A stretch of DNA of 64,000 bases, from assembly GCF_900112815.1 (NCBI RefSeq), contig NZ_FOND01000017.1, positions 1 through 64,000 on the forward strand, written 5' to 3'. The notes beneath the pieces are model-generated. The model was not told the DNA's origin. It did not search any database and saw only the letters and a program-made list of their open reading frames with translations. Below, in pieces: positions 7,972-53,110 of this stretch; the first letter of the stretch is position 1, and each line of letters opens with the position of its first letter. Made by a program: the position numbers and the translations under genes. The DNA is from Blastococcus tunisiensis (lineage in GTDB: Bacteria; Actinomycetota; Actinomycetes; Mycobacteriales; Geodermatophilaceae).

Positions 7972-9956
7972 GCGCCCCGATGATCGAGCGCGTCCTCGTC
8001 GCCAACCGCGGAGAGATCGCCCGCCGCGTCTTCCGCACCTGCCGCGACCTCGGCATCGGCACCGTGGCGGTGTACTCCGACGCGGACGCCGACAGCCCGC
8101 ACCGCGCCGAGGCCGACCGCGCCGTACGGCTCCCCGGCTCGGCGCCGGCCGACACCTACCTCCGGTCCGACCTGCTGATCGACGCCGCGCGGGCCTCCGG
8201 CGCCGACGCGATCCACCCCGGGTACGGCTTCCTGTCGGAGAACGCGGAGTTCGCGCAGGCCGTGCTCGACGCCGGCCTGGTCTGGATCGGCCCCCCGCCG
8301 GCGGCCATCGACGCCATGGGTTCGAAGGTGCAGGCCAAGGAGCTCATGGCCGATGCCGGCGTCCCCGTGCTGCCCGAGCTGGACCCGGAGACCGTCACCG
8401 ACCGCGACCTGCCGGTCCTCGTCAAGGCCAGCGCCGGCGGGGGAGGCCGCGGCATGCGCGTCGTCCGCACGCTCGCCGAGCTGCCCGGGGCGCTCGCCGC
8501 CGCGCGGGCCGAGGCCGCCAGCGCGTTCGGGGACCCGGCCGTGTTCTGCGAGCCCTACGTCGAGGCGGGCCGGCACCTGGAGGTGCAGGTCCTCGCCGAC
8601 GCGCACGGCACCGTGTGGTCCCTCGGCGAGCGGGAGTGCTCGCTGCAGCGCCGGCACCAGAAGGTGGTCGAGGAGACGCCGTCCCCGATGGTGGACGACG
8701 CCCTGCGCGCCGAGCTGTCGGCCGCCGCCGTGGCCGCCGCGAAGGCCATCGACTACGTGGGCGCGGGCACCGTCGAGTTCCTCGCGAGGAACGACGGCAC
8801 CTTCTGGTTCCTCGAGACCAACACCCGCCTCCAGGTCGAGCACCCGGTCACCGAGTGCGTGACGGGCCTCGACCTCGTCGCCGAGCAGCTGCGGATCGCG
8901 GCGGGGGAGCGGCTGGCGGCCGACCCGCCGGGGCCCCGGGGCGCCGCGATCGAGGTGCGGCTCTACGCCGAGGACCCGGGGCAGGGCTGGCGGCCGACCG
9001 GCGGCCCGGTCCGCCGGTTCGCCGTCCCTGGCGTGCGCGCCACGTTCGACGTGCCCGACCGGCCCGGCGTGCGGCTGGACCCGGGCGTCGTCGACGGCAC
9101 GACGGTGGGGACGGCGTACGACCCGATGCTGGCGAAGGTGATCGCCTGGGCCCCGACCCGGGCCGAGGCGGCCGCCCGGCTGGCCGCCGCCCTGGCCGGT
9201 GCCCGGATCCACGGGCTGACGACCAACCGCGACCTGCTGGTGCGCACCCTGCGGCACCCCGAGTTCCTCGCCGGGCGCATCGACACCGGGTTCTTCGAGC
9301 GGATCGGACTCGACGTCCTCGCCGCTCCGCTGGCCAGGCCGCGCGAGGTCGGGCTCGCCGCGCTGGCCGGCGCCCTGGCCGTGGAGGCGACCGGACGCCG
9401 GGACGCCGGCGTGCTGGCGGAGCTGCCCAGCGGCTGGCGGAACGTGCCGTCGCAGCCGCAGTGGACGGCGTTCGACGCCGCCGGGGAGACCGTCGAGGTC
9501 GGCCTCCGGCACACCCGGGGCGGGCTGCTGGTCGAGGGGCGCGACGGCCAGCATCTTGAGGACGTGGTGCTCGTCTCCGCCGGCCCGGCGGACGTCGTCC
9601 TCGAGGTGGCCGGCGTCGAGCACCGGCTGGCGGTCTCCGTCGACGGGGACGCGGTGGACGTCGACGGGGACGGCTGGGCCGTGGCCCTGCGCCTGCTGCC
9701 CCGCTTCCCCGACGCCGCCGCCGCGGTCGCGGCCGGTTCACTCGTCGCACCCATGCCCGGCACGGTCACGGCGGTGGACGTCGCGGTCGGGGACGCGGTC
9801 GCGGCCGGGCAGCGGCTCCTGGTCCTCGAGGCGATGAAGATGCAGCACCCCGTTGTGGCCGGGACCGCCGGCGTGGTGCGCTCCCTGGACGTCGTCCCGG
9901 GGGCCCAGGTGGACGCCGGCACCGTGCTGGCCGTGATCGAGCAGGAGGACCCGTGA
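7968..9956 (+). CDS. Acyl-CoA carboxylase, biotin carboxylase/BCCP (alpha) subunit
   Basis: A 662-residue fusion. The biotin carboxylase domain occupies about residues 1-450 (VLVANRGEIARRVFRTC, HPGYGFLSENAEF, KASAGGGGRGMRVV, ERECSLQRRHQKVVEE, TVEFL and ETNTRLQVEHPVTE). A linker and BT-like region follow. The C-terminal biotinyl domain carries EAMKMQHPV, with the biotinylated lysine at about residue 624. GTG 7968 was preferred to ATG 7980 because it keeps the GTGA overlap seen throughout this operon. The stop codon at 9954 is the first base triplet of a 76-bp intercistronic repeat leading to the acyl-CoA dehydrogenase gene. Confidence 0.92.
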   Translation: MSAPMIERVLVANRGEIARRVFRTCRDLGIGTVAVYSDADADSPHRAEADRAVRLPGSAPADTYLRSDLLIDAARASGADAIHPGYGFLSENAEFAQAVLDAGLVWIGPPPAAIDAMGSKVQAKELMADAGVPVLPELDPETVTDRDLPVLVKASAGGGGRGMRVVRTLAELPGALAAARAEAASAFGDPAVFCEPYVEAGRHLEVQVLADAHGTVWSLGERECSLQRRHQKVVEETPSPMVDDALRAELSAAAVAAAKAIDYVGAGTVEFLARNDGTFWFLETNTRLQVEHPVTECVTGLDLVAEQLRIAAGERLAADPPGPRGAAIEVRLYAEDPGQGWRPTGGPVRRFAVPGVRATFDVPDRPGVRLDPGVVDGTTVGTAYDPMLAKVIAWAPTRAEAAARLAAALAGARIHGLTTNRDLLVRTLRHPEFLAGRIDTGFFERIGLDVLAAPLARPREVGLAALAGALAVEATGRRDAGVLAELPSGWRNVPSQPQWTAFDAAGETVEVGLRHTRGGLLVEGRDGQHLEDVVLVSAGPADVVLEVAGVEHRLAVSVDGDAVDVDGDGWAVALRLLPRFPDAAAAVAAGSLVAPMPGTVTAVDVAVGDAVAAGQRLLVLEAMKMQHPVVAGTAGVVRSLDVVPGAQVDAGTVLAVIEQEDP

Positions 9957-10029
9957 CCGAGCTTGCGAGGGCACGCAGAGACAGAGCACCGCGCGGCACG
10001 TGTGCGACGAGCGTCAGCGAGGAGTGCAC
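9954..10029 (+). repeat. 76-bp stop-to-start intercistronic element, copy A
   Basis: It begins with the TGA stop of the carboxylase alpha gene (TGACCGAGCTTGCGAG) and ends at the base before the GTG of the dehydrogenase gene (GCGTCAGCGAGGAGTGCAC). It aligns without gaps with copies at 15386-15461 and 51979-52054, all exactly 76 bp long. The conserved 3' part AGCGAGGAG is the Shine-Dalgarno sequence of the next gene. Confidence 0.85.
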
Positions 10030-11190
10030 GTGACGCTGGACTTCGACGAGGGCGACGAGCTGCGGGCGCTCCGGGCGGCGGTGGCCGACCTCGGCTCGCG
10101 CTACGGGCAGTCCTACTTCCTGGAGCAGGCGCGCTCCGGCGGCAGCACCGACGCGCTCTGGCGGGAGGCCGGCAAGGCCGGCTTCCTGGGCGTCAACCTG
10201 CCCGAGGAGTACGGCGGGGGCGGCGGCATGGTCGAGCTGTCCCTGGTGTGCGAGGAGCTCGGCGCCGCCGGCTGCGGACTGCTGATGATGGTCGTCTCCC
10301 CGGCCATCTGCGGCACGGTGATCGCACGGTTCGGCACCGAGGAGCAGAAGCAGCGCTGGCTGCCCGGCCTGGCCGACGGCTCGTCGATCATGGCCTTCGC
10401 CATCACCGAGCCCGACGCCGGCTCCAACTCCCACGAGATCACCACCACCGCCCGGCGGGACGGCGACGAGTGGGTGCTCACCGGCCGCAAGACCTGGATC
10501 AGCGGCGTCGACCTCGCCGACGCCGTGCTCGTGGTCGGCCGGCTCGCGGACGGGCCGAAGGGCACGCTCCGGCCGGCGCTGTTCGTCGTCCCCACGGATG
10601 CGCCGGGGCTCACCGCCCAGCCGATCCCGATGGAGATCGTCAGCCCGGAGCGGCAGTTCTCCGTCTTCCTGGACGACGTCCGGCTGCCGGCCGACGCGCT
10701 GGTCGGCTCCCCCGAGTCGGGGATCGCGCAGCTGTTCGCGGGGCTCAACCCCGAGCGGGTGATGGCGGCGGCGTTCTCCCTCGGTGTCGCCCGCCTGGCC
10801 ATGCGCAAGGCCACCGACTACGCCCGCGAGCGCACCGTCTGGGGCACCCCGATCGGCGCCCACCAGGGGCTGGCCCACCCGCTGGCCGCCTGCCAGATCG
10901 AGATCGAGCTGGCCCGGCTGATGACCCAGAAGGCCGCCTGGCTGATCGACCGGGGCCGGGACGCCGAGGCGGGGCTGGCGGCCAACAGCGCCAAGTACGC
11001 CGCCGCCGAGGCCGCCGCGCGCACCGTCGACCAGGCGGTGCAGACCCACGGCGGCGCCGGGCTCGCCCAGGAGTACGGCGTCGGCGCCCTGCTCGTGGCC
11101 TCCCGGCTCAGCCGGATCGCCCCCGTCAGCCGCGAGATGATCCTGAGCTTCGTGGCCCAGCACGACCTGAAGTTGCCCCGCTCCTACTGA
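10030..11190 (+). CDS. Acyl-CoA dehydrogenase
   Basis: A 386-residue flavoenzyme of the ACAD family. It has PEEYGGGGG near residue 60, MAFAITEPDAGSNSHEITT (about 121-139, FAD contact), TGRKTWISG, and QTHGGAGLAQEYGV near the C-terminus. The canonical C-terminal catalytic glutamate of medium-chain enzymes is not evident. NPERVMAA (Glu at about 242) resembles the helix-G glutamate of isovaleryl-CoA dehydrogenase, hinting at a branched substrate. The GTG start has a strong GAGGAG (10019-10024) supplied by the 76-bp repeat. It would introduce the double bond before carboxylation, the AtuD-like role. Confidence 0.88.
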   Translation: MTLDFDEGDELRALRAAVADLGSRYGQSYFLEQARSGGSTDALWREAGKAGFLGVNLPEEYGGGGGMVELSLVCEELGAAGCGLLMMVVSPAICGTVIARFGTEEQKQRWLPGLADGSSIMAFAITEPDAGSNSHEITTTARRDGDEWVLTGRKTWISGVDLADAVLVVGRLADGPKGTLRPALFVVPTDAPGLTAQPIPMEIVSPERQFSVFLDDVRLPADALVGSPESGIAQLFAGLNPERVMAAAFSLGVARLAMRKATDYARERTVWGTPIGAHQGLAHPLAACQIEIELARLMTQKAAWLIDRGRDAEAGLAANSAKYAAAEAAARTVDQAVQTHGGAGLAQEYGVGALLVASRLSRIAPVSREMILSFVAQHDLKLPRSY

Positions 11191-14622: not shown

Positions 14623-15315
14623 ATGCGCCGCAACGATCCCGCGCAGTACGACCAGCTGGCCGACGAGTGGTGGCGGCACGACGGGGAGTTCGCCGCGCTG
14701 CACTGGCTGGCCGCCTCGCGCGCCGAGCACGTCCCCCCGGCCCCGCACCCCGGTGCCGTCCTGGTCGACCTGGCCTGCGGCGGCGGTCTCATGGGACCGT
14801 ACGTCGAGCGCCTCGGCTACCGGCACGTCGGGGTCGACATCGGGATCCGCGGCCTGGAACTGGCGCGGCGGCACGGCGTGCTCCCGGTCCGCGGATCGGT
14901 TCTGGCGGTCCCGCTCGCGGACGGCTGCGCGGACGTCGTCCTCGCCGGGGAGATCCTCGAGCACGTGGAGGACGACGTGGGCGTCCTCGCCGAGTGCGCG
15001 CGGCTGCTCCGGCCCGGCGGCGCCCTGGTGCTCGACGCGCTCGCCGCGGGCCGGCTGTCGACCCTGGTCAACGTGCACCTGCTCGAGCGGGTGCCCGGGG
15101 GCCCGCCCCGCGGGCTGCACGACCCCGCGCTGTTCGTCGACCGGGAGCGCCTGCTGGCGGCGGCGGACCGGCTGGGGCTCGACCTGCGGCTGGTGGGCCT
15201 GCGCCCGTCCATGCGGCAGGCGATCGCCTGGAAGCTGGGCCGGCGGACGACGGTCGCGATGAAGCCGATCCGCTCGACGGCCGTCGTCTTCGCCGGTTAC
15301 GGGCGGAAACGCTGA
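14623..15315 (+). CDS. Class I SAM-dependent methyltransferase (UbiG-like)
   Basis: A 230-residue Rossmann methyltransferase: motif I is VLVDLACGGGLMGPYVERLG (about residues 47-66), the acidic residue ending beta 2 is in VGVDIG, and motif IV/post-I are in LAGEILEHVEDD and LLRPGGALVLD. It resembles UbiG/menaquinone-type O- or C-methyltransferases. It is immediately upstream of the type III polyketide synthase gene, and such synthase-methyltransferase pairs often make methylated alkylresorcinol/pyrone quinones in actinobacteria. It may thus methylate that product, but this is context only. Its promoter looks leaderless (TAGGTT at 14611). Confidence 0.85.
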   Translation: MRRNDPAQYDQLADEWWRHDGEFAALHWLAASRAEHVPPAPHPGAVLVDLACGGGLMGPYVERLGYRHVGVDIGIRGLELARRHGVLPVRGSVLAVPLADGCADVVLAGEILEHVEDDVGVLAECARLLRPGGALVLDALAAGRLSTLVNVHLLERVPGGPPRGLHDPALFVDRERLLAAADRLGLDLRLVGLRPSMRQAIAWKLGRRTTVAMKPIRSTAVVFAGYGRKR

Positions 15316-15352: not shown

Positions 15353-15388
15353 ATGACGCCGAGCCCGTGCGCCCCGGAGACCCCGTGA
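15353..15388 (+). CDS. Putative 11-aa leaderless leader peptide
   Basis: ATG at 15353 opens MTPSPCAPETP and stops at TGA 15386-15388. Two things suggest translation: a -10 box 6 nt before the ATG, and the fact that its stop codon is the first triplet of a 76-bp element which elsewhere always begins at the stop codon of an upstream gene. It could be a regulatory leader peptide of the type III PKS gene or a remnant of a lost gene. Too short for family assignment. Confidence 0.35.
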   Translation: MTPSPCAPETP

Positions 15389-15461
15389 GCGAGCTTGCGA
15401 GCTCGCGCGAAGACGCAGCACCGCTGTGGTCACGGCCGACGAGCGCCAGCGAGGAGATGCC
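15386..15461 (+). repeat. 76-bp stop-to-start intercistronic element, copy B
   Basis: TGAGCGAGCTTGCGAG at the 5' end and GACGAGCGCCAGCGAGGAG near the 3' end match copies A (9954) and C (51979) without gaps over 76 bp. It runs from the TGA of the 11-codon leader frame to the base before the GTG of the PKS gene and supplies the GAGGAG ribosome binding site. Confidence 0.85.
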
Positions 15462-16490
15462 GTGACCAGCGCGGTCGTGACCGGCGTGGGGTCCGCCCTC
15501 CCGGCGACCTTCGAGCAGGACGACGTGTGGAGCGGGTACTTCGCCCGGCACTACGAGGGCGTGCGCGCCGCGCACCGGATCTTCCAGAGCGCGGGCGTGC
15601 GACGCCGGCACGCGGTGGCCAGCCCGATGGACGAGGACCTCAGCCAGTGGGGGACCGGCGCCCGCATGGAGCGCTACGTCCAGGAGGCGCTGCCGCTGGG
15701 CAAGCAGGCCGTCGCCGGGGCGCTGGACTCCGCCGGCCTCGCGCCGGGCGACGTCGGGCTGTTCGCCGTCGCCACCTGCACCGGGTACGCGACGCCGGGC
15801 CTGGACATCCGGCTGGCCAGCGACCTCGGCATGCCGGTCGGGCTGCAGCGGCTCCTGGTCGGGCACATGGGCTGCTATGCCGCGATCCCGGGCCTGGCCG
15901 CGGTCAGCGACTTCGTGACGGCCCGGTCCCGTCCGGCGGTGCTGCTGTGCTGCGAGCTGACCAGCCTGCACGTGCAGCCGGCGCAGCGGGACCTCGAGCA
16001 GGTGGTGGCGCACGCGCTGTTCTCCGACGCGGCGGCCGCCGTCGTGCTGGAGCCCGGTGCGTCGCGCGGACGCCGGGTCGCCGGGATGGTGGCGCGCACC
16101 GACGCATCGACCGCCGACCACATGACCTGGGACGTCACCGACCTCGGCTTCCGCATGGGCCTGTCGCCGCGGGTGCCCGACGTGCTGTCCCGGCACGTCG
16201 GCGGGGTGGTCGAGGAGCTGCTCGGCTCGGCCGGCCTGCGGATCGAGGACGTCGCCGGCTGGGCGGTGCACCCCGGCGGGCCGCGCATCCTCGACGTCGT
16301 CCGGGACGAGCTCGGCCTCGCCGAGGAGCAGATGGCCGCCTCGCGCCGAGTGCTGGCCGAGCACGGCAACTGCTCGTCGGCCACGGTGCTGCTGGTGCTG
16401 GAGGAGATGGCCGACGTCGACGGGCCGGTCGTGGTCATGGCCTTCGGTCCCGGCCTGACGCTGTACGCCGCGCTGCTCATGCCGGCGTGA
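15462..16490 (+). CDS. Type III polyketide synthase
   Basis: A 342-residue thiolase-fold ketosynthase with the chalcone-synthase-type triad: Cys138 in LLVGHMGCYAA, His270 in WAVHPGGPRILD, and Asn303 in HGNCSSATVL. FGPGLTLYAALL at the C-terminus matches the GFGPGL loop of the family. Such enzymes condense malonyl-CoA units on an acyl-CoA starter to form pyrones, resorcinols or tetrahydroxynaphthalene; the starter cannot be read here. The GTG at 15462 follows the 76-bp repeat with its GAGGAG. The upstream methyltransferase gene is the likely tailoring partner. Length is normal for the family. Confidence 0.88.
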   Translation: MTSAVVTGVGSALPATFEQDDVWSGYFARHYEGVRAAHRIFQSAGVRRRHAVASPMDEDLSQWGTGARMERYVQEALPLGKQAVAGALDSAGLAPGDVGLFAVATCTGYATPGLDIRLASDLGMPVGLQRLLVGHMGCYAAIPGLAAVSDFVTARSRPAVLLCCELTSLHVQPAQRDLEQVVAHALFSDAAAAVVLEPGASRGRRVAGMVARTDASTADHMTWDVTDLGFRMGLSPRVPDVLSRHVGGVVEELLGSAGLRIEDVAGWAVHPGGPRILDVVRDELGLAEEQMAASRRVLAEHGNCSSATVLLVLEEMADVDGPVVVMAFGPGLTLYAALLMPA

Positions 16491-51153: not shown

Positions 51154-51978
51154 TCAGCGGTCGCCGAGCTCGGAGTGCAGCGCCGTCAGCGCCTCGGTGA
51201 GGGCGTTGAACTCCTCGCCGCCGGCCATCAGCCGCATGAGGTCGGCGGCGTCGACGTCGTCCCGGGTCAGCAGGCCGGCGACCGAGCCGTGCGCCAGCAG
51301 CAGGAACCGATCACCGACCAGGTGCGCGTAGCGCGGGTTGTTGGTCACCAGCAGGACCGCGAGGCCCTGGGTGCGGGCGGCGACGATCGCCTGCAGCAGG
51401 AGTGTCTGCTGGTTCACCGTCAGCGGTGCCGTCGGCTCGTCGACGATCAGCGCCCGCGCCCCGAAGTGCATGGCCCGCGCGATCGCGAGGCTCTGGCGGG
51501 CGCCGGCCTGCAGCGTGCTGGCCGGCTGGTCGGGGTCCAGGTGAGTGACCCCCACGCGGGCCATGGCCCGGACGGTGGTCTCCCGCGCCTTCTCGACGTC
51601 CAGCCGGCGCAGCGGCCCGACCCCGCGGGTGGGTTCGGCGCCCAGGAAGAAGTTGCGCCAGATCGACAGCAGGGGCGCGACCGCGAGGTCTTGCCAGACG
51701 GTCGCGATCCCGGCCGCGCGGGCCTGCCGCGGCGAGCGGAAGCGGACCGGCTCCCCGCTCAGGAGCAGTTGCCCCTCGTCGTGCGGCCGCAGCCCGGAGA
51801 GCACCGAGACCAGGGTGGACTTGCCCGAACCGTTCTCCCCGAGGACGCAGGTGATCTCCCCGGCCGGCAGCGTGACGCTCACCCGGGACAGCGCGGCCAC
51901 GCTGCCGAAGTGCACGCTGAGCCGCTGCAGTTCCAGCTCCGGCAGGTGCGGGGCGGCGCGGTGGACGGGCTCGGTCAC
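51154..51978 (-). CDS. ABC transporter ATP-binding protein (sugar type), degenerate signature
   Basis: A 274-residue single ATPase domain. Walker A GENGSGKST (residues 47-55), Q-loop in ATVWQDLAVAP, Walker B ALIVDEPTAPL, and a switch asparagine replacing the usual His (LLVTNNP). The ABC signature, normally LSGGQ, reads LQAGARQ. In ribose/xylose-type (CUT2) transporters the C-terminal half of the tandem ATPase is similarly degenerate, but here only one half-length domain is encoded. It pairs with the permease gene upstream. The GTG is preceded by the GAGGAG of 76-bp repeat copy C. Activity may be weak or need a second subunit. Confidence 0.85.
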   Translation of the reverse strand: MTEPVHRAAPHLPELELQRLSVHFGSVAALSRVSVTLPAGEITCVLGENGSGKSTLVSVLSGLRPHDEGQLLLSGEPVRFRSPRQARAAGIATVWQDLAVAPLLSIWRNFFLGAEPTRGVGPLRRLDVEKARETTVRAMARVGVTHLDPDQPASTLQAGARQSLAIARAMHFGARALIVDEPTAPLTVNQQTLLLQAIVAARTQGLAVLLVTNNPRYAHLVGDRFLLLAHGSVAGLLTRDDVDAADLMRLMAGGEEFNALTEALTALHSELGDR

Positions 51979-52054
51979 GGGCGCTCCTCGCTGGCGCTCG
52001 TCACACCCGTGTCCGTGGGTGCTCTGTTCCCCCGTGACCTCGCGAGCTCGGTCA
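51979..52054 (-). repeat. 76-bp stop-to-start intercistronic element, copy C
   Basis: On the minus strand it starts with the TGA of the permease gene (TGACCGAGCTCGCGAG) and ends just before the GTG of the ATPase gene (GACGAGCGCCAGCGAGGAG then CGCCC). It is again exactly 76 bp and aligns without gaps with copies A and B. Confidence 0.85.
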
Positions 52055-53110
52055 CGACCGGGGCACCGCCTTCAGCCGGCGGCGCACGACCCCGGTGGCC
52101 AGGAGCGCCACCAGCAGCAGGACGCCGAGCAGCGCGCGGAACCACAGCGGGTCCCACCCGCTGAGGACGATGCCCTCCCGCGAGACGGCGTAGAGCAGCG
52201 CGCCCACGGAGGCGCCGATCGCCGAGCCGTACCCCCCGGTGAGCAGGCAGCCGCCGAGGACCGCCACCACGATGAAGTCGATCGCCGTGGTCAGGACCGG
52301 GGAGCCGATGCCGACCGAGCCGAAGCGGACCAGCCCCAGCGTGCCGATCAGCCAGCCGGCCGACGCGGTGAGGCCGAAGAGCACGAGCGTCGTCCGCTGG
52401 ACCGGCACCCCCAGCTGGCGGGCCGCCGTCCGGGCTCCCCCGCTGGCGAAGACGGCGTTGCCGAAGCGGGTGCGCCACAGCGCCCAGGTCGCCACCAGGG
52501 TGACCCCGAGCCACCAGAGCAGGGACACGCGGAAGCGGCCGTCACCCACCTGCAGCGTGGAGCCGAACACCGCGACGGCGGACTCCCAGCCCGGGGCCTC
52601 GTCCACCCCGGCGACCCGGCCCGACCCCGTCACGGCGAGCGCGCCGGCCTGGGAGACCCCCTGCAGGACGAGGAACGTCGCCAGGGTCACCAGGAAGCTC
52701 GGCAGCCCGGTGTTCACCACCAGGAACGCGTTGACCAGGCCGACGGCCAGGGCCGCCGCCAGGGAGACCAGCAGCGCCGGCCAGATGTCCCACCCCGCGT
52801 GCTGGACCAGCAGTGCCGTGAGCAGCGGGCTGGCCACGGCGACGACGCCCACCGACAGGTCGAACTGGCCGGCGATGAGCAGCAGTCCCACGGCCACCCC
52901 GCCGATGCCCAGCAGCGCCGCCGTGTCCAGGACGCCGGCCAGCCCGCCGGTCGTGAGCAGCGCCGGCGCCTGCAGGCCGAACACCACCGAGACGACGAGC
53001 AGGGCGACCAGTGCGGGCAGGCTCGGCCGCGCGAGCGCCCGCCCGAGCAGCCGGCGGCCGGTCGAGGGGGCGGGCGACGCCGTCGACGTGGGCAGCCGGG
53101 TGCTGGTCAC
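52052..53110 (-). CDS. ABC transporter permease (CUT2 sugar type)
   Basis: A 352-residue membrane protein with about nine to ten helices. LLIAGQFDLSVGVVAVASPL is the RbsC/XylH-type signature (normally GGIDLSVG). AFLVVNTGLPSFLVTLATF and VLGGCLLTGGYGSAIGASVG are the other conserved blocks. This is the family importing ribose, xylose, galactose or similar compounds. No periplasmic binding protein gene is nearby; the ribokinase gene is 38 kb away. The GTG at 53110 was chosen for GCGAGG ahead; GTG 53134 is possible. The stop begins 76-bp repeat copy C. Confidence 0.87.
   Translation of the reverse strand: MTSTRLPTSTASPAPSTGRRLLGRALARPSLPALVALLVVSVVFGLQAPALLTTGGLAGVLDTAALLGIGGVAVGLLLIAGQFDLSVGVVAVASPLLTALLVQHAGWDIWPALLVSLAAALAVGLVNAFLVVNTGLPSFLVTLATFLVLQGVSQAGALAVTGSGRVAGVDEAPGWESAVAVFGSTLQVGDGRFRVSLLWWLGVTLVATWALWRTRFGNAVFASGGARTAARQLGVPVQRTTLVLFGLTASAGWLIGTLGLVRFGSVGIGSPVLTTAIDFIVVAVLGGCLLTGGYGSAIGASVGALLYAVSREGIVLSGWDPLWFRALLGVLLLVALLATGVVRRRLKAVPRS

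Follow-up and report, generated by a model that had tools for sequence, protein, structure and literature searches.

Introduction

REP and palindrome-associated elements are small, hairpin-bearing, non-autonomous repeats with a short target, and they are moved by Y1 transposases of the IS200/IS605 type. To our knowledge, MIRUs have been described as being without dyad symmetry, and we know of no stop-to-start rule for the BOX and RUP repeats of pneumococcus. In the passages available from PMC12548453, which cites Supply et al. 1997, MIRUs are reported as apparently mobile elements that insert at start codons and carry an internal ORF coupled at -4 nt; excerpts of PMC3914561 give a size of 46-101 bp and 41 loci, and excerpts of PMC9392950 a length of 77 bp for the MIRU repeats of senX3-regX3.

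The window analysed here, i.e., the whole stretch of 64,000 nucleotides from contig NZ_FOND01000017.1 of Blastococcus tunisiensis (Geodermatophilaceae), contains three copies of a repeat that very probably is a small, non-autonomous mobile element of the MIRU kind inserting at start codons. A first-pass annotation of this DNA had supposed that the role of the repeat was undescribed; as far as the passages of PMC12548453 go, the start-codon insertion architecture is of a kind already known from MIRUs. A literature search over titles and the beginnings of abstracts returned no description of the present element in Geodermatophilaceae. New here are two covarying hairpins and the presence inside the unit, in direct and in inverted form, of the bases with which the following gene begins.

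Three copies in the window

The three copies lie at 9954-10029 and 15386-15461 on the + strand and at 51979-52054 on the - strand; each starts with the T of TGA, ends just ahead of GTG and measures 76 nt. As the first-pass annotation had described, they align without a gap across the 76-nt span and share the same blocks. Similarity stops at the unit edges. In a search of the window that allowed up to 3 mismatches, the 3' block GACGAGCGNCAGCGAGGAG was found at these three places only, all with 0 mismatches (mean 0.67 matches in 100 shuffles, of which 2 reached 3 matches of any kind); the 5' block alone, at up to 3 mismatches, gave 21 matches in the window against 16.2 by chance, which is not above chance. 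The unit is better defined as 77 bp, from NTGA to NTGA. Within it lie a GGAG resembling a Shine-Dalgarno sequence and a frame of 26 codons that overlaps both ends by NTGA: with 77 + 1 = 78, the GTG of the left NTGA opens 26 codons, and the stop is the TGA of the right NTGA.

Copy 1, supported by sequence, alignment and model match, occupies 9953..10029 (+), from the left GTGA up to but not including the right GTGA, and its predicted mini-ORF (9953..10033, +; VTELARARRDRAPRGTCATSVSEECT and a stop) overlaps both neighbours by GTGA. Hairpin 1 (9952..9975, +), known from family covariation, has arms 9952-9958 and 9969-9975 around GAGCTTGCGA and contains the upstream stop codon. Hairpin 2 (9997..10032, +; covariation and fold), with arms 9997-10002 and 10027-10032, includes the GTG start and encloses GGAG (10021..10024, +), the likely Shine-Dalgarno sequence of the downstream gene. 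Copy 2 (15385..15461, +), on the same three lines of evidence, stands before a gene that the first-pass annotation named type III PKS-like, with a predicted mini-ORF at 15385..15465 (+; VSELASSREDAAPLWSRPTSASEEMP and a stop) and, in the fold, a hairpin 2 (15427..15468, +) with 10-nt perfect arms TGGTCACGGC (15427-15436) and GCCGTGACCA (15459-15468), the second of which extends into the host gene. Copy 3 (51979..52055, -), again identified by sequence, alignment and model match, lies between two ABC-transporter-like genes (named by reading), with a predicted mini-ORF at 51975..52055 (-; VTELARSRGNRAPTDTGVTSASEERP and a stop) and a folded hairpin 2 at 51976..52011 (-; arms 52011-52006 and 51981-51976).

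All three copies had been called intercistronic. Copies 1 and 3 do span from the stop of the upstream gene to the start of the next; copy 2 is a unit in front of a gene and not clearly intercistronic, because no more than 41 codons make up the frame ending at its TGA, and the preceding long frames of the + strand stop earlier, at 15315 and 15356.

The genome-wide family

A covariance model (R1) made from 14 own-genome copies (alignment A3) found 32 places in the own genome (G000) at E<=1, of which 27 at E<=0.002. The neighbouring genes, named by eye from translations, are diverse and mostly housekeeping (response regulator, exopolyphosphatase, RNase PH, cysteine desulfurase, fliQ-, lysS- and pstP-like genes, and others), in line with the unrelated neighbours remarked on earlier. 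Chance or composition as the origin of the copies is ruled out by the shuffle controls together with the genome-wide matches. Duplicated gene ends, named in the first-pass annotation as the simple explanation that would speak against its proposal, are ruled out as well, as the flanking genes are unrelated by reading and similarity ends at the unit. One of the 27 matches (L077, C28:272260) comprises the 5' part of the unit only and lies before an nnrE-like gene (named by reading), where the fragment may have become the N-terminus of the nnrE-like protein.

Among 61 genomes of relatives, searched with R1 at E<=0.001 under stricter filters, 32 had matches: all 16 of the own genus, with 2 to 70 matches each, 15 of the 21 that belong to the family but not to the genus, and 1 of 24 from other families. 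Of 298 genomes drawn evenly from the order, 60 had matches at E<=1e-5, consisting of 47 from the own family and 13 from other families, and four own-family genomes of this draw are listed as misses. One of these 13, G169, contains 42 matches at E<=1e-4. A tandem version of the unit with a 65-bp period and without the GAGCGCCAGCGAG loop was seen in G189 (L261/L269), also of another family of the order.

Tandem arrays contain 2 to 4 units with a 77-bp period, and adjacent units share one NTGA. Arrays seem to grow locally, because their members, by eye, are near-identical within one array and not between arrays. Unit length was read from a non-random sample of sequence-profile hits, drawn from the own genome, the best hits of relatives, and array, orthologue and other stretches of G012 (a genome with 74 such hits); the 190 hits became 142 on deduplication and 126 when a score of 25, near-full length and distinct sequence were demanded. 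Much as the first-pass annotation had foreseen, placement is mostly between same-strand genes and the length is nearly fixed: the period from NTGA to NTGA is 77 in 101 of the 126 copies, 80 in 8, 76, 78 and 79 in 2 each, and 71, 74, 75, 82 and 101 in 1 each. The left TGA is missing in 6/126.

Position at start codons and unoccupied sites

The right NTGA is the downstream start, in that a coding frame follows the right NTG in 104 of the 107 copies without a next unit; the three failures include L058, whose 57-codon frame may be a short gene. On the left, TGA ends a coding frame in 71 of the 108 copies without a preceding unit, at least one of which (L057) was judged a false positive that looks like the shadow of an opposite-strand gene.

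Orthologous sites were sought with downstream-gene pieces of 19 own loci in six congeners, and 70 stretches at 18 loci from four congeners were taken, with the hits in G010 and G011 and locus L055 left out. A profile hit is present in 18 of these stretches and absent from 52. The aligned start carries NTGA in 43 of the 52 hit-less sites and lacks it in 9, and some of the 52 contain other insertions or copies in decay, as at L062 in G006 and L054 in G002. At L051, G000 reads CTCGTGA-unit-GTGACCC, and three congeners read GCGTGAG, GCGTGAC and GCATGAG. In at least one congener, the unoccupied form is a GTGA, ATGA or TTGA overlap at L051, L054, L058, L061, L062, L065, L066 and L067. Unoccupied NTGA sites are the pattern that insertion at a start codon predicts, and the genome-wide family with its occupied and unoccupied orthologous sites bears out the earlier suggestion that the element is mobile or copied.

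The accompanying suggestion, that the element couples genes into operons, is not supported by the comparison. Coupled sites without the unit already overlap by GTGA or ATGA, which shows that coupled genes can adjoin without it, and since the genes touch at these unoccupied sites, the unit separates genes that are already adjacent. The unit also occurs at start codons that do not seem to coincide with the end of any gene; L057, L068, L070, L072 and L073 were read as being without a stop-start overlap. In a crude frame test, some sites of L057, L063 and L073 nevertheless scored as having an open frame upstream, which is put down to opposite-strand genes.

Other insertions were observed beside the family. 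At the fhaB-pstP-like site, an old unit of constant length, its hairpins apparently decayed, is common to G000, G012, G013 and G006, and G002 (L184) has a longer insertion (~110 bp) there. In the G002 orthologue of L054 (L189), the gene junction is occupied by another kind of insertion, rich in GAGCG and ~80 bp long.

Hairpins

Bases around the left NTGA pair with GSTCAC in helix 1, and bases around the right NTGA pair in helix 2, enclosing GACGAGCGCCAGCGAGGAG. In alignment A3, 90.4% of cells are paired and double changes occur in 9 of 18 pairs, 0/500 shuffles being as high on either measure, and a slid-structure control gave 18 to 44% paired. In 73 units before distinct genes, 418/438 cells are paired in helix 1 and 571/730 in helix 2 (shuffled maxima 387 and 502). 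Single-sequence folds have z values of -0.1, -3.0 and -4.0 for copies 1, 2 and 3. Helix 2 is kept in the folds of all three window copies; helix 1 as modelled appears in that of copy 3 only, and copies 1 and 2 favour other 5'-side pairings, in copy 1 at 9952..9975.

The strong covariation, with GGAG and the start within hairpin 2, might also be expected of a vertically inherited cis-regulatory RNA (a riboswitch or protein-bound leader), in which hairpin 2 would hide the Shine-Dalgarno sequence and start until a ligand or upstream translation opened it; in addition, arm 3 pairs with host bases past the start codon and co-varies with them at L060, L066, L067 and L072 (by eye). Such an RNA is nevertheless improbable. 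The genes are diverse with no evident regulon (by eye), members of the genus have anywhere between 2 and 70 copies, orthologous sites are commonly unoccupied, and the direct internal copy of host bases would be left unexplained. A known riboswitch or RNA family is ruled out, there being no Rfam match: in Rfam 15, only a tRNA is above the gathering threshold in the window, and copy 1 has nothing up to E 10.

The own genome also has other, terminator-like repeats (L047, L048 and L050 on C38, C33 and C28 of G000, L015/L016, and L020), which share the hairpin cap CGAGC-N(2-4)-GCGAG of the unit (CCCCGAGCTTGCGAGGGG; CTCCGAGCGTCAGCGAGGAG in L015/L016). The CTCCGAGCGTCAGCGAGGAG repeat of L015/L016 is found twice, 94 bp apart, at C21:107662 and 107756.

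The mini-ORF

The predicted 26-codon frame is present in 3/3 window copies and open in 92/108 first or single units, and 11/19 copies of non-77 length keep it (expected one third; binomial p 0.024). It is intact in 66/71 coupled versus 26/37 uncoupled copies (p 0.003), six of the 37 being without a left TGA by definition; among copies with a left TGA only, the comparison is 66/71 versus 26/31 and not significant (p 0.17). We infer that selection probably acts on the nucleotides and not on the peptide, because in our reading of the alignment the conserved bases of the unit show no preference for the first two codon positions, and a Thr-to-Ser change arises at the fifth base jointly with a change of its helix partner.

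Internal bases that match the host gene

In 63 insertions before distinct genes, all with period 77 and no preceding unit, the left and the right NTGA are followed by an identical base in 43 (expected 28.2; 0/2000 shuffles), and none of the other 27 flank positions tested on these insertions came below 140/2000. The left and right N of NTGA are equal in 46/63, where 46.7 is expected, i.e., without correlation. Duplication of the whole NTGA is unsupported, since the two N are uncorrelated and the next base alone correlates. As for the features of classical MITEs, no end-to-end inverted repeats were seen by eye, and left-right identity exceeds composition only at the base after NTGA.

A scan of positions inside against positions outside (4234 tests, 62 copies, one array member having been dropped) gave seven position pairs with z>4. 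Internal positions 36 and 37 are identical to host positions 81 and 82 in 54/62 and 52/62; internal 42, 41 and 40 are complementary to host 81, 82 and 83 in 53/62, 55/62 and 45/62; internal 22 is complementary to host -1, and internal 17 to host 81, in 43/62 each. A shift-tolerant test with 1000 permutations on 82 last units before distinct genes found a direct copy (A and at least 3 host bases inside) in 45/82 (permuted mean 12.2, maximum 22; 0/1000) and an inverted arm complementary to at least 3 host bases in 44/82 (permuted mean 27.0, maximum 38; 0/1000). The excess of direct copies is clear for lengths between 2 and 5 bases and has faded by 6 (1/82, 311/1000); that of arms is absent at 2 (288/1000), weaker at 4 (14/82, 18/1000) and not significant at 5 (5/82, 110/1000). 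Permutation within G000, G012 and the rest gave 8/1000, 11/1000 and 6/1000 (arm) and 1/1000, 0/1000 and 0/1000 (copy), and with the first host base held fixed both stood at 0/1000. In 20 copies from other families, the arm was found in 11/20 (1/1000) and the copy in 9/20 (62/1000, weak).

Comparison between species, by eye, gave a divided picture. The unit at L060 looks shared by G000, G013 and G002 (CGCCGAG and GAGGTG); G002 has the host start ATGACGG with internal CGG, CCG and CATG, and the others have GTGACCG with internal CCG and CGG. The arm varies jointly with the host bases at L066, L067 and L072 as well, and at L059 the internal copy varies with the host and the arm does not. At L056/L113, neither arm nor copy follows the host, and at L063 both species keep ATGACG inside, which is the start of the unoccupied G013 site, their own host starts now being different. 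Because these two groups of loci behave differently, part of the host match looks to have been fixed at insertion and part changed later.

The match has three candidate origins: target-templated insertion, selection for a hairpin at the start codon, and palindrome-associated template switching. Insertion guided or templated by the target, in which arms and internal segment would be complementary to or copied from the first bases of the entered gene and each insertion rewritten to fit, is a tentative possibility. Replication template switching at the imperfect palindrome, by which functionless arms and internal copy would be continually rewritten from the host start, is rather unlikely: the direct (36-37 = 81-82) and inverted (40-42 versus 81-83, 22 versus -1) matches to outside bases and the concerted between-species differences at L060 and L059 (by reading) speak for it, but it accounts for the matching and not for dispersal to start codons, and it is at odds with the lack of co-change between L056 and L113 and with the ATGACG retained inside L063 despite changed host starts.

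Search for a mobilizing enzyme

Two subterminal hairpins, a fixed orientation to a short target and target-complementary arms would also fit a kinship to IS200/IS605 or REP elements, the unit being a non-autonomous relative whose arms serve as guide sequences for the cleavage sites. This relationship is disfavoured and very unlikely, as no Y1 transposase (PF01797) was found in 16 genomes, comprising the own genome, 12 congeners with copies and 3 genomes from elsewhere in the family; the control of the PF01797 search was positive in 5/14 named genomes. A larger autonomous element with the same ends was looked for in the own genome by the right-end pattern at <=1 mismatch, and none was among the 20 places found, of which 17 are units that R1 finds and 3 (L015, L016, L020) the other terminator-like repeat. 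A search for named relatives on plasmids and phages gave nothing convincing. A haloarchaeal Natrinema plasmid (NZ_CP082248.1:96781-96804) has 24 bp identical to the left end of L271 (E 0.02), which may be by chance or convergent.

Discussion

On the preferred reading, a mobile repeat of the MIRU kind, the unit, presumably carried by transposition, would insert at the NTGA beginning a gene, very often the 4-nt overlap of coupled genes. The left NTGA would still supply the TGA stop of the upstream gene, and the right NTGA would supply the downstream NTG start, now preceded by the GGAG of the element itself. Because ribosomes could run from gene to mini-ORF to gene via the 26-codon frame, the insertion would be nearly neutral in its consequences.

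The element resembles MIRUs in size class, its usual 77 bp being that of the senX3-regX3 repeats (excerpts of PMC9392950), in insertion at start codons in gene orientation, seen here in the 104/107 right-end frames and the unoccupied sites, and in an internal ORF that overlaps the downstream gene at -4 nt, in the present element as predicted from its sequence (both MIRU traits from passages of PMC12548453). It is likewise interspersed, with tandem copies in varying number. It differs from MIRUs in occurring in other host families, in having two covarying hairpins, and in its host-matched internal bases, for which the passages of PMC12548453, PMC3914561 and PMC9392950 describe no MIRU counterpart. 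A sequence profile from 19 copies of five families (R2) had no match in a Mycobacterium-like genus, g19 (0/17 genomes at E<=0.001), and matched 4/4 genomes of another genus in its family. From PE proteins, g19 is inferred to be Mycobacterium: it is the genus richest in them, with at least 6 matches in 14/17 genomes and 1 or 2 in the remaining 3. By this indirect comparison, through the g19 genomes, the element seems to be distinct from MIRUs as a sequence family. Since the architecture agrees and the profile finds nothing in g19, it is filed as MIRU-like in every architectural point tested, and not as a MIRU by descent.

With REP elements it shares its small size, hairpins, non-autonomy and short target, and differs in its start-codon position, GGAG and mini-ORF and in the absence of Y1 transposase from the 16 genomes searched. 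By description only, it may be likened to BOX and RUP of pneumococcus as a small interspersed chromosomal repeat (PMC3049150).

These results would extend MIRU-type elements to another bacterial group, and, as occupied and unoccupied sites are cleanly distinguished, the proposed insertion at start codons can be put to a comparative test. For annotation, stop-to-start gaps made of 77-bp units, and N-termini like that of the nnrE-like protein at L077, may be insertion scars. The host-base match offers a handle on how enzyme-less repeats of this kind choose or fit their targets. Target-guided or target-templated insertion, if true, would amount to a novel way for an enzyme-less repeat of under 80 bp to recognise its target.
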